From contig NC_015416.1 of assembly GCF_000204415.1 (NCBI RefSeq), positions 1,550,001 through 1,614,000 on the forward strand: a stretch of 64,000 nucleotides of DNA, given 5' to 3'. The notes under the pieces are model-generated. The model saw only the letters and a program-made list of their open reading frames with translations, did not search any database and was not told the DNA's origin. The DNA comes from Methanothrix soehngenii GP6 (GTDB taxonomy: Archaea > Halobacteriota > Methanosarcinia > Methanotrichales > Methanotrichaceae). Below, piece by piece: positions 25,425 to 28,857 of the stretch; the stretch's first letter is position 1; every line of letters starts with the position of its first letter. The position numbers were made by a program, and so were the translations under genes.

Positions 25425-26324
25425 ATGCCACCGATGAGTTTTTATTATATAAGCGCAAAGGCGCCTCCCACCGGTGATGCCTTGCTAAAGGAACTAATGC
25501 AGTCGATGCGGCCATTTCAGTGGTACAAAAACATGGTTATCTTTATAGGCATAACCTTTTCATATAATCTATTTAACTGGGAAATGTGGCCACGCGTTAT
25601 CTTTGCTTTCATAATGTTCTGTTTAATTTCCGGTTCGATATATATTATAAATGACATAAAAGATGTTGATAGAGATCGTCTCCATCCCAAGAAGCGGTTC
25701 AGGCCGATCGCATTTGGAACTCTCTCATCTCGAACGGCCCTATTAGTATCCATCTTGCTATTATCTATATCCTTATTAATCTCATTCTTTGTAAACAGGC
25801 CGTTATGTTATATTGAGCTATTATATGTATTTATAAATTTATTATATACTTTTTACCTCAAATATTTTGCTCTAATCGATGTGATAGTAGTTGCAGTCGG
25901 TTTTGTCCTGAGAGCTGTCGCCGGAAGCCTGGTTATCAATGTGTATATTTCCCCCTGGCTTATTCTTTGCGTATTTCTTATGTCGTTTGTTTTGGCCTTT
26001 GGAAAGAGGCAAAACGAGCTATTGACCGCCAGCAGCTCCAGAGATTGCTTATCCCAGTACACGGAGAAAATGGTAGAAGGTCTTCTGAATATATCCGTGT
26101 CAATGCTTCTCATGGCCTATGCTCTTTATTCATTTTATGTAGATACAAATATGATGATCACACTCCCGTTTGCCTTTTATGGTGTATTCAGGTTTGTGCA
26201 GCTCGTCTATCTGAAGAACTTCGGCGGTGAGGCAGAGCTCATCTTAAAGGACTCGGCCTCTCTGGCAAATCTTGTTCTCTGGACTGTTTCTGCAATCGTT
26301 GTCCTTTACGAGGTGAGAGCATGA
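25425..26324 (+). CDS. UbiA-family prenyl-phosphate phosphoribosyltransferase (DPPR synthase-like)
   Basis: About 300 residues; TTG 25398 is an alternative start, ATG 25425 is preferred. Multi-pass membrane protein. MRPFQWYKN is followed by the metal/diphosphate motif NDIKDVDRDRLHPKKRFRPI, with VLRAVAGSL, LAFGKRQNEL and GGEAELILKD later. This pattern is specific to the UbiA branch of mycobacterial Rv3806c, which transfers 5-phosphoribose from PRPP to decaprenyl phosphate. Its stop overlaps the ATG of the PHP gene (ATGA). It probably makes a polyprenyl-phosphoryl-phosphopentose donor. Assignment to the branch is from sequence; the exact reaction is inferred. Confidence 0.82.
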   Translation: MPPMSFYYISAKAPPTGDALLKELMQSMRPFQWYKNMVIFIGITFSYNLFNWEMWPRVIFAFIMFCLISGSIYIINDIKDVDRDRLHPKKRFRPIAFGTLSSRTALLVSILLLSISLLISFFVNRPLCYIELLYVFINLLYTFYLKYFALIDVIVVAVGFVLRAVAGSLVINVYISPWLILCVFLMSFVLAFGKRQNELLTASSSRDCLSQYTEKMVEGLLNISVSMLLMAYALYSFYVDTNMMITLPFAFYGVFRFVQLVYLKNFGGEAELILKDSASLANLVLWTVSAIVVLYEVRA

Positions 26325-26376
26325 AGTTCGATATGCACGTTCACACGTTTGATATGAAAATGGGCCTTACGCATAC

Positions 26377-27624
26377 CTATGCAGCCGCTATTTCTGAGGT
26401 GCATGTCCTTACGACCTCGTATCCTGCCTTTTCAAGTAATCTGATCATCGACCGTTCTTTTCTCTTCGTCGCTCGTTCATTAGCTTCCTCGGCGCCTGTA
26501 TCTTGATAAGGTGCTCCAGTTTTGAGAACACGGTAGATGTCCATGAGCATGCGATGCGCTAGAGCCACAAGAGCTCTTTTCTTGCCTCTCCGTCTGACAA
26601 TATTTTGATAGAAAGCGTTATAGGTGGAGCGTTTGACCTTTGAGGCAGCCCATGCGGCCTCAGCCAACGTTCCTTTCAAAAAAGAATTTCCTTTTTGGGT
26701 TTTTCCGCTCTTTTTCTTGCCAGCACTTTCATTATTGCCTGGACAAACTCCCGCCCAAGAAGAAAGATGTGCTTCGTCAGGGAACTGAGACATGTCTGTC
26801 CCGATTTCTGCCAGGATGGCAGATGCGCTGACCTTACTGATTCCTGGAATCGATTGGATCAGGTTAGACTCCTTTTGAAAAGGGATCATTTTTCTCTCGA
26901 TCTGTTCATCGATTTTTGCGATTTGCCTGGCAAGATGATCGAGATTCTCCATATGCATTTTTAGGAGGAACCTGTGATGATCAGTTAATTTTCCATCAAG
27001 GGCTTTCTCCAGCAGATCAACTTTCTTCTTGAGTGAGCCTTTAGCCAACTGAGAGATTTCCTCTTTGGAAAGCCTATCCTTTTCCAGAAGAGATCGAATC
27101 ATAGCCATTGATGAAACGCCAGAGATCTTGGATACAACCGAGCTGAGCTTGATATTCGATGATTCTAACACTTTTGTCAGTCGATTCTTCTCTGAGGTCA
27201 TCATTCCAACCAGCTTTCTTCGAGTGCGATTGAGATCACGCAACTCTCTGATTTCTCTTGGCGGAATGAAGCTGTTGGGAAGCAGTCCATATCTCAGCAA
27301 TTTGGCGATTCTCTTGCAATCCATGATGTCGGTTTTCTTTCGAGGAATGGCCTTGAGGCGCTGAGCATTGGCAAGAACTATTGTGAACTCTCCTTCCATT
27401 ATATTGAAGATCGGTTTCCAATAGACGCCGGTGCTTTCCATGCCGATTGTTGTGACATTATATTTCTTCAGCCAGGATTTCAGGTCTTCGAGATCTGAGG
27501 TCATGGTTGAGAAGGTCCTGATCTCGAACTTCGGAGATTTCTCAAGAGGGCCATGAGCAATGCATACGTCTACTTTCTTCTCGTGAACATCCATTCCAGC
27601 GCAACTATCCAGAACCGGCTCCAT
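26377..27624 (-). CDS. IS110-family DEDD transposase/recombinase
   Basis: 415 residues. The RuvC-like N-terminal domain has CAGMDVHEKKVDVCIA (first Asp), IGMESTGVYWKP (Glu) and KTDIMDCKRIA (Asp pair). The C-terminal transposase domain has IPGISKVSASAILAEIGTD and SSWAGVCPGNNESAGKKKSG, which contains the conserved Ser region. It is RNA-guided in the characterised members. All key residues are visible, so the enzyme looks intact. Confidence 0.92.
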   Translation of the reverse strand: MEPVLDSCAGMDVHEKKVDVCIAHGPLEKSPKFEIRTFSTMTSDLEDLKSWLKKYNVTTIGMESTGVYWKPIFNIMEGEFTIVLANAQRLKAIPRKKTDIMDCKRIAKLLRYGLLPNSFIPPREIRELRDLNRTRRKLVGMMTSEKNRLTKVLESSNIKLSSVVSKISGVSSMAMIRSLLEKDRLSKEEISQLAKGSLKKKVDLLEKALDGKLTDHHRFLLKMHMENLDHLARQIAKIDEQIERKMIPFQKESNLIQSIPGISKVSASAILAEIGTDMSQFPDEAHLSSWAGVCPGNNESAGKKKSGKTQKGNSFLKGTLAEAAWAASKVKRSTYNAFYQNIVRRRGKKRALVALAHRMLMDIYRVLKTGAPYQDTGAEEANERATKRKERSMIRLLEKAGYEVVRTCTSEIAAA

Positions 27625-27868
27625 GCTAAATCTCCTTGAGATGGGCAGAGCAACATGTTATTTCTTTAAATTTGATACGCGTGCCTGTATGGCGACATTC
27701 ATGGGTACTAACTGTTGCTCAAGGCAGTTTCACTCACGGGGACTTATGAATCCTCCAGAAACGCTTCGCCTTTGATTACCTGTCTCATAATTTAGGCTGA
27801 TGATCATTCCTGGATATAAACCTAAACCCACATTTTCATGCCTCATGGGTGCCTGGCCAGGCATGACG
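27625..27868 (-). ncRNA. Candidate IS110 bridge RNA region
   Basis: Non-coding DNA between the element end and the transposase ATG. It contains GTTTCACTC (27727-27735), identical to the target flank at 27869-27877, and TTTGATA (27671-27677), identical to the opposite junction at 26348-26354. In the transcript direction (minus strand) the target match comes before the donor-end match, the loop order known for the IS621 bridge RNA. The RNA ends and fold are not determined. Confidence 0.6.
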
Positions 27869-28497
27869 GTTTCACTCCAAGAGATGTGGTTGGATGAAAC
27901 CGGAGCGGCTCGTAGAGCATGCCAAAAAGAAGGAGCTGGATGGCCTGGCGGTTACTGATCATAATACCATTGATGGCGCTCTTGAGGTCTTCGACATAGT
28001 CAGAGACGAACATATGGATTTTTCCGTCATAATTGGTGAGGAGATCTCCACGGACAGGGGCGAAGTTCTGGCCTACTTCATAAATAGGGAGATTGAGCCG
28101 GGATCTTTTGTGCAGGTTCTAACTGAAATAAGACGGGCTGGCGGCATTTCGGCCATACCTCATCCTTTTGACAAATTAAGGCATCATGCAGTCCGTTTAA
28201 CGAGTAATGATGTAGAGCTCGTCGATTGCATTGAAGGCTTCAATGCTCGATGTCTCTTTAAAACATACAACGATTTAGCATATAATTTCGGAAAAGAATA
28301 TGATCTTGCGATTACGGCTGGTTCGGATGCGCACTTTTTAAACGAGGTTGGGAACGGCGGAATTATTACCGGACAAGAGAATATCCGAGAAGCGATAATG
28401 AAAAAAAATGTGACCATTTATGGGCATAGGTCAATGGTTATCAATCACGCGGGAACGAAAATCTTAAAATTGGGACGAAGCATTCGGGGTTATCTTG

Positions 28498-28857
28498 ATG
28501 AGTAGATATGTCATATATGCCCTTGTTACAGTTATCTTGATCTCAATTGGCCAGCTCTTGTTCAAACTTAGTTCAAAGGATTTAAGAATCGAGAACGTCC
28601 ATGACATGATAGGATTTATTTTTAACAGATATTTGATAATAGCCTTAATAATTTATATAATTTCGACAGCATTGTGGATATTTACTTTATCAAAAATGGA
28701 ATTGGGATTCTCATATTTGTTACTAAGCTTGAGTTATCCTTTAATTTTCTTATTATCCCATATATTCTTACATGAGGAATTATCAAGCTATAAATTGTTT
28801 AGTATTTTATTGATTATTTTGGCTAATGCTTTGTTGCTCTATGGAGATAAGGCATGA
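28498..28857 (+). CDS. Small four-helix membrane protein (SMR/EamA, ArnE/ArnF-like)
   Basis: About 119 residues with four hydrophobic helices. ISIGQLLFKLSSKDL and MELGFSYLLLSLSYPLIFLL fit the small-multidrug-resistance fold used by ArnE/ArnF, which flip undecaprenyl-phosphoryl-aminoarabinose. ATG 28498 is preferred over TTG 28495. It overlaps the end of the PHP gene and its own stop overlaps the next ATG. Probable role: moving a polyprenyl-phosphoryl sugar across the membrane for the GT-C enzyme encoded next. Confidence 0.75.
   Translation: MSRYVIYALVTVILISIGQLLFKLSSKDLRIENVHDMIGFIFNRYLIIALIIYIISTALWIFTLSKMELGFSYLLLSLSYPLIFLLSHIFLHEELSSYKLFSILLIILANALLLYGDKA

Follow-up and report, generated by a model that had tools for sequence, protein, structure and literature searches.

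A Methanothrix IS110-family element with a predicted left-end bridge RNA and an apparently reversed order of target guides

Among programmable DNA recombination tools, bridge RNAs are the most recent, and the examples characterized experimentally in the literature considered here are bacterial. In IS621, the left target guide (LTG) is placed 5' and the right target guide (RTG) 3' (PMC11208158). Siddiquee et al. found the top-strand complement 5' of the bottom-strand complement in IS1111 elements and the reverse order in the IS110 element ISEc21 (PMC11187229). The 64,000-nucleotide stretch analyzed here (the window), from a Methanothrix genome of 3,026,645 bp in two contigs, contains an intact IS110-family element of 1522 bp at 26351-27872 (Table 1). 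Like IS621 (PMC11208160, PMC11208158), this element combines a DEDD and Ser recombinase with a predicted RNA gene in the left end (LE) and a target loop 5' of a donor loop.

Table 1. Positions of the element, its target and the predicted RNA features in the window
Feature	Position	Strand	Basis or remark
IS110-family insertion sequence	26351..27869	(-)	LE tip 27869, right-end (RE) tip 26351; second identical copy, uninterrupted PHP homologue, junctions of relatives
Core AAA, one copy on each side of the element	27870-27872 and 26348-26350
Left target GAGTG with core AAA, within the PHP gene that the element interrupts	27870..27877	(-)	Uninterrupted PHP homologue
Core AAA plus right target CGTGTG	26342..26350	(-)	Uninterrupted PHP homologue
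Target of the element, GAGTGAAACGTGTG
DEDD transposase/recombinase, 415 aa	26377..27624	(-)	PF01548 E 8.6e-25, PF02371 E 1.6e-23; alignment to 8wt6
Predicted bridge RNA body	27638..27786	(-)	Closed by stem P1 (27786-27776 with 27648-27638)
Predicted target-binding loop	27721..27772	(-)	Stem T1 (27772-27768 with 27725-27721), apical hairpin T2 (27756-27750 with 27743-27738)
Predicted RTG, GCGUUU	27759..27764	(-)	5' strand of target loop; register scan, exact permutation, held-out bacterial set
Predicted LTG, GAGUGAAAC	27727..27735	(-)	Identical to flank of both genomic copies; 92/92 core-adjacent matches, 23 sites
Predicted donor-binding loop	27648..27720	(-)	Stem D1 GAGCAAC/GUUGCUC (27720-27714 with 27654-27648), apical hairpin D2 (27693-27691 with 27685-27683)
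Predicted left donor guide (LDG), GUAUCAAA	27671..27678	(-)	Matches RE ..ATATCAAA, G.T wobble at first base; changes with right end in relatives
Subterminal inverted repeat ATGAAAATG, 9 bp, LE copy	27831..27839	(-)	34 nt from LE tip
Subterminal inverted repeat ATGAAAATG, RE copy	26354..26362	(+)	4 nt from RE tip
TATA-box-like TTTATATC	27813..27820	(-)	~34 nt upstream of P1; candidate archaeal promoter within LE

An earlier, sequence-only reading of the window had proposed that deleting 26351-27872 restores a PHP gene. Fusion of 26321-26350 to 27873-28505 indeed yielded a single 220-aa frame in which a PHP domain (PF02811, E 3.4e-10) is accompanied by PHP_C, and the junctions were confirmed because L093, a PHP homologue with 85% identity from a second genome of this genus, reads through the insertion site without a break. 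The GTTT noted at both junctions by that reading is present at both element ends, but in relatives the right junction has AAA and then A, A, G or T as the next base (L004, L005, L044 and the first G549 copy). Because relatives vary at the fourth base, the shared core is limited to about AAA, with the fourth base being element DNA at one junction and target DNA at the opposite one. Insertion is target-specific, in a single orientation and without true target duplication, the shared core being the only repeated part. The element has a long leader, with ∼245 nt of non-coding DNA upstream of the transposase gene (tnp), and a short RE, with 26 nt downstream.

The transposase carries DEDD_Tnp_IS110 and Transposase_20 domains (Pfam) and can be aligned to the IS621 and ISCro4 recombinases of solved structure; residues D12, E63, D99, D102 and S300 align with the IS621 catalytic residues D11, E60, D102, D105 and S241, respectively. 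The serine sits in GVCPGNNESAG, where the family consensus is SG. Named relatives of the transposase were mostly from Methanothrix, and a scan of viral contigs for relatives found none.

One further copy, identical over 1522 bp, is present in the genome (G000:C1:1760111-1761641, L002), and a related TnpB-element copy (L090) represents its empty site. Written in the transposase sense, the targets of the two copies are CTTGGAGTGAAACGTGTG and GCATTGAGTGAAACATACC; the two insertion sites differ, and the only contiguous stretch that they have in common, GAGTGAAAC, is the leader 9-mer (27735-27727). The second copy lies directly upstream of a 395-aa TnpB-like ORF (L002 3042-4229), within an IS605-like element.

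We compared homologues whose transposases are 56-92% identical, drawn from further genomes of the genus, from additional genera within its class and phylum, and from a MAG with the label Methanosuratincola. Their leaders align well save for a few patches, one of which lies directly 5' of AAACTG and equals the element's own flank: AATTGAAAC in L003, CAAGAAAC in L004, CAAAGAAAC in L005, TTAACGAAAC in L006, AGAATAAAC in L042, AAGAAAAAC in L014, ATATGAAAC in L010 and AAAAGAAAC in L044. L043 has one core mismatch between LTG and flank. The same genome supplied further pairs of target and guide, ATTGAAAC with CGATTGAAAC in group A (6 copies), CCACAAAG with GACACAAAG in group B and AGTGAAAC with TTAGTGAAAC in group C, together with the single-copy group D (L033). 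For ten W-type elements and these four other IS110 groups (14 elements, 23 sites), the four core-adjacent guide bases matched the left flank in 92 of 92 comparisons, as against a mean of 38 and a maximum of 79 when guides were permuted among elements (100,000 permutations, p<1e-5). This agreement across elements establishes the LTG: the predicted guide has the same sense as the left target and core, and the alignments show that it changes with the target in every compared relative.

These results bear out what had been read from the leader of the window copy, namely that GTTTCACTC at 27727-27735 copies the target flank at 27869 and is the current target guide matching the element's own site. 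The position was exact, the second copy shares the same 9-mer, and the guide tracks the flank in homologues. The sequence-only reading had let its proposal stand or fall by two comparisons among homologues; in these, the loop equivalent to 27727 tracks each flank, and the fold is shared with compensatory changes.

The archaeal genome thus offers a clean natural experiment, with five IS110 groups, several of them multicopy, each with its own guides and matching targets. Along the G000 chromosome (e.g. L036-L038 and L045-L056), ∼25 IS110-type transposase matches, full and partial, fall into at least five groups, and the many near-identical copies held by several groups form a natural guide/target dataset. 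One group B copy, L053, is without 7 nt in the apical hairpin of the target loop (ACCUGAUCUC versus ACCUGAGACAUGAUCUC), and its bridge RNA is probably inactive.

Comparison of folds supports the prediction that the element carries a bridge RNA in its left end. The 11-bp stem P1 is perfect in L044, L043 and groups A-D, with 8 of the 11 pairs in the window copy. T1 reads AAGGC/GCCUU in the window, AGGUC/GACCU in L006, GGCUG/CAGCC in group A and GGUUG/CAACC in group B; the pairing of T1 and T2 is preserved through two-sided changes, and D1 retains 64 of 65 pairs in the ten W-type elements. The left guide lies 3' of the apical hairpin in both the target loop and the donor loop. The window RNA folded better than shuffled sequences (z = -2.58, for a single sequence), and its minimum-energy fold is without some of the proposed stems. 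T1 is short (3-5 bp) and the stems were aligned by hand; RNAalifold alone missed T1 because MAFFT had shifted one strand by one base. An Rfam scan matched no bridge-RNA family and returned only two sub-threshold matches, to unrelated families.

The predicted LDG reads TATCAAA in the window, L003, L004 and L005 and TACCAAA in L006 and L044, and the LDGs of groups A, B and C are TATGGGAAA, TATGTGAAG and AATGCGAA. By inspection of these five sequence states, the right end of each element bears essentially its own LDG word, showing that the predicted guide corresponds to the right end and varies together with it across relatives. The TTTGATA at 27671-27677, which had been taken as a copy of the junction at 26348, was located exactly. 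For the right donor guide (RDG), a scan of all registers against the limited right-donor variation gave none above chance; the alternatives are that this variation does not suffice here or that the right-donor side is read by the protein.

In the target loop the LTG occupies the 3' strand, so the RTG was expected on the 5' strand. We scanned 146 registers over the whole RNA against 16 right-target sequences flanking 8 elements, leaving out group D, which was kept for the LTG, because its poly-A junction makes the core ambiguous. The best register lay on the 5' strand, six bases before T2 (11 of 40320 exact permutations), and in the window this register reads GCGUUU, whose pairing with the AAACGT of the PHP site includes one G.T wobble. 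The clearest pairings were UCUGUGAC with GTCACAGA in group B and CCGCCG with CGGGGG and CGGCAG in group C. Bonferroni correction for the 146 registers brought the discovery p to ∼0.04, and the RTG claim therefore leans on a held-out set of eight bacterial relatives from plasmids, unused before, which was examined because the register had been found in the discovery data.

Since archaeal and bacterial elements do not share exactly the same fixed hairpin offset, the register was allowed to slide in the held-out test. Pairing of the 5' strand was better with each element's own right flank than after permutation of the flanks (149 of 40320), and it surpassed 500 of 500 shuffles; Radiobacillus had an uninterrupted 8-bp RTG match to its right flank. 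RTG pairing was looser than that of the LTG and often partial at individual sites (W2, L004), and the bacterial L087 hardly paired. These data strongly support placing the putative RTG on the 5' strand, which gives the RNA order RTG, hairpin, LTG and then donor loop. The sequence-only reading had left the second half of each guide pair unclear, with a weak AAACG match at 27759-27763. This match is real and proves to be the RTG; the second half of the donor guide was not found. The target half had looked unclear because the target-guide order is reversed relative to IS621.

An IS621 layout, with the LTG 5' and the RTG 3' in ACAGUUAG (about 27715-27707), has in its favor that this order is known from IS621 and ISEc21 (PMC11208158, PMC11187229) and that a variable dinucleotide is present in the stretch. 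We nevertheless consider it unlikely: the stretch is directly 3' of the donor-loop basal stem (GAGCAAC/GUUGCUC), no register 3' of the LTG rises above chance once the registers are counted, and the IS621-like position in the held-out bacterial set did no better than permuted flanks (11175 of 40320; p=0.28). An RTG 3' of the LTG was the placement tried first, and it was rejected when the variable dinucleotide before UUAG did not follow the right flanks.

Two further explanations concern the leader matches themselves. If the protein recognized the target and the leader copy were there by descent, e.g. as a captured flank, a match in one element would likewise be seen, but the match is confined to one and the same loop position in 14 elements of different sequence and follows each flank, and transposases 82-92% identical have different flanks, each matching its own guide, which makes this account very improbable. 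Each word match alone is only moderately surprising, since a random 9-mer of the window is found in the 244-nt leader with P=0.0037 and a random 7-mer with P=0.022; the second copy at another site and the covariation across the family nonetheless reduce chance to a negligible prospect, refuted by the 92/92 result.

As a whole, the locus is very probably best explained as an IS110-family element in which a left-end bridge RNA directs the recombinase. This RNA would be made from an internal archaeal TATA promoter. By analogy with IS621, the target DNA would pair with the target loop and the RE-core-LE junction of the excised circle with the donor loop, and the DEDD and Ser recombinase would exchange strands at the shared A-rich core. 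A similar TATA-like box is found 31-34 nt upstream of P1 in six independent archaeal elements (W, L003, L004, L005, L006 and L010), which suggests that transcription may start inside the element and not from the circle junction only.

IS1111 elements are commonly defined by a subterminal inverted repeat. The 9-bp ATGAAAATG repeat falls within the 7-17 bp range set for such repeats; its shuffled-end P was 0.0135, both motifs are retained in archaeal and several bacterial relatives, and its position is asymmetric.

The guide gene is itself a potential insertion site because LTG DNA necessarily resembles the target. At L003 1590-1710 / L072 (G549 contig C60), one copy's right end abuts precisely the LTG core in the RNA gene of a second copy and is also tandemly duplicated, an apparent self-insertion into the guide gene in what is a MAG assembly; the second copy also holds another transposase-bearing element, presumed to be of the ISL3 type. 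On the Alicyclobacillus dauci plasmid NZ_CP104065 (L073/L077), identical IS110 copies lie in tandem, and here again the event is self-directed, with the right end joined to a site inside the left end of the element itself (AAGGATGAAAATG). The L003 contig (JACIVP010000022.1), assigned to a Candidatus Methanosuratincola bin, has an element that is 92% identical; either the element moved recently between distantly related archaea, or a Methanothrix contig was misbinned.

The mechanism is already known, and its guide layout looks like a new variant, with priority not certain, as PMC11208160 presents six more elements in Extended Data Fig. 10. The swapped order bears on the relationship of IS110 and IS1111 and on guide location and reprogramming in the subgroup of roughly 400-aa recombinases, where a guide finder built on the IS621 order would search the wrong place; the archaeal recombinases are a possible source of tools for methanogens.

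The predicted RNA resembles that of IS621 in its 9-nt LTG including the core, its LDG of about 8 nt and its short RTG. It differs in its reversed target guides, in an A-rich core where IS621 has CT, in having no RDG detected and in being closed by its own 11-bp stem; a candidate internal TATA box stands in place of the sigma70 promoter formed at the circle junction in IS621. As in the ISEc21 seekRNA (PMC11187229), the non-coding region upstream of tnp holds both target matches, but the top-strand complement is 5' here and 3' of the bottom-strand complement in ISEc21. With the IS1111-group seekRNAs of ISEc11, ISPa11 and ISKpn4 (PMC11187229) the element shares an RTG 5' of the LTG and a subterminal inverted repeat, whereas the non-coding region is upstream of tnp here and downstream in IS1111, and the repeats of IS1111, usually 11-13 bp, are close to both ends while the LE repeat here is 34 nt inside. 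On balance, we favor the view that the IS110 RNA-gene location occurs together with the IS1111 target-guide order and an IS1111-like subterminal repeat in one clade, whose members are found in methanogenic archaea, Bacillota and Actinomycetota. If so, this clade would have a distinct bridge-RNA architecture, perhaps intermediate between the IS110 and IS1111 groups, and would contradict the published generalization that elements with an upstream RNA have the reversed guide order.
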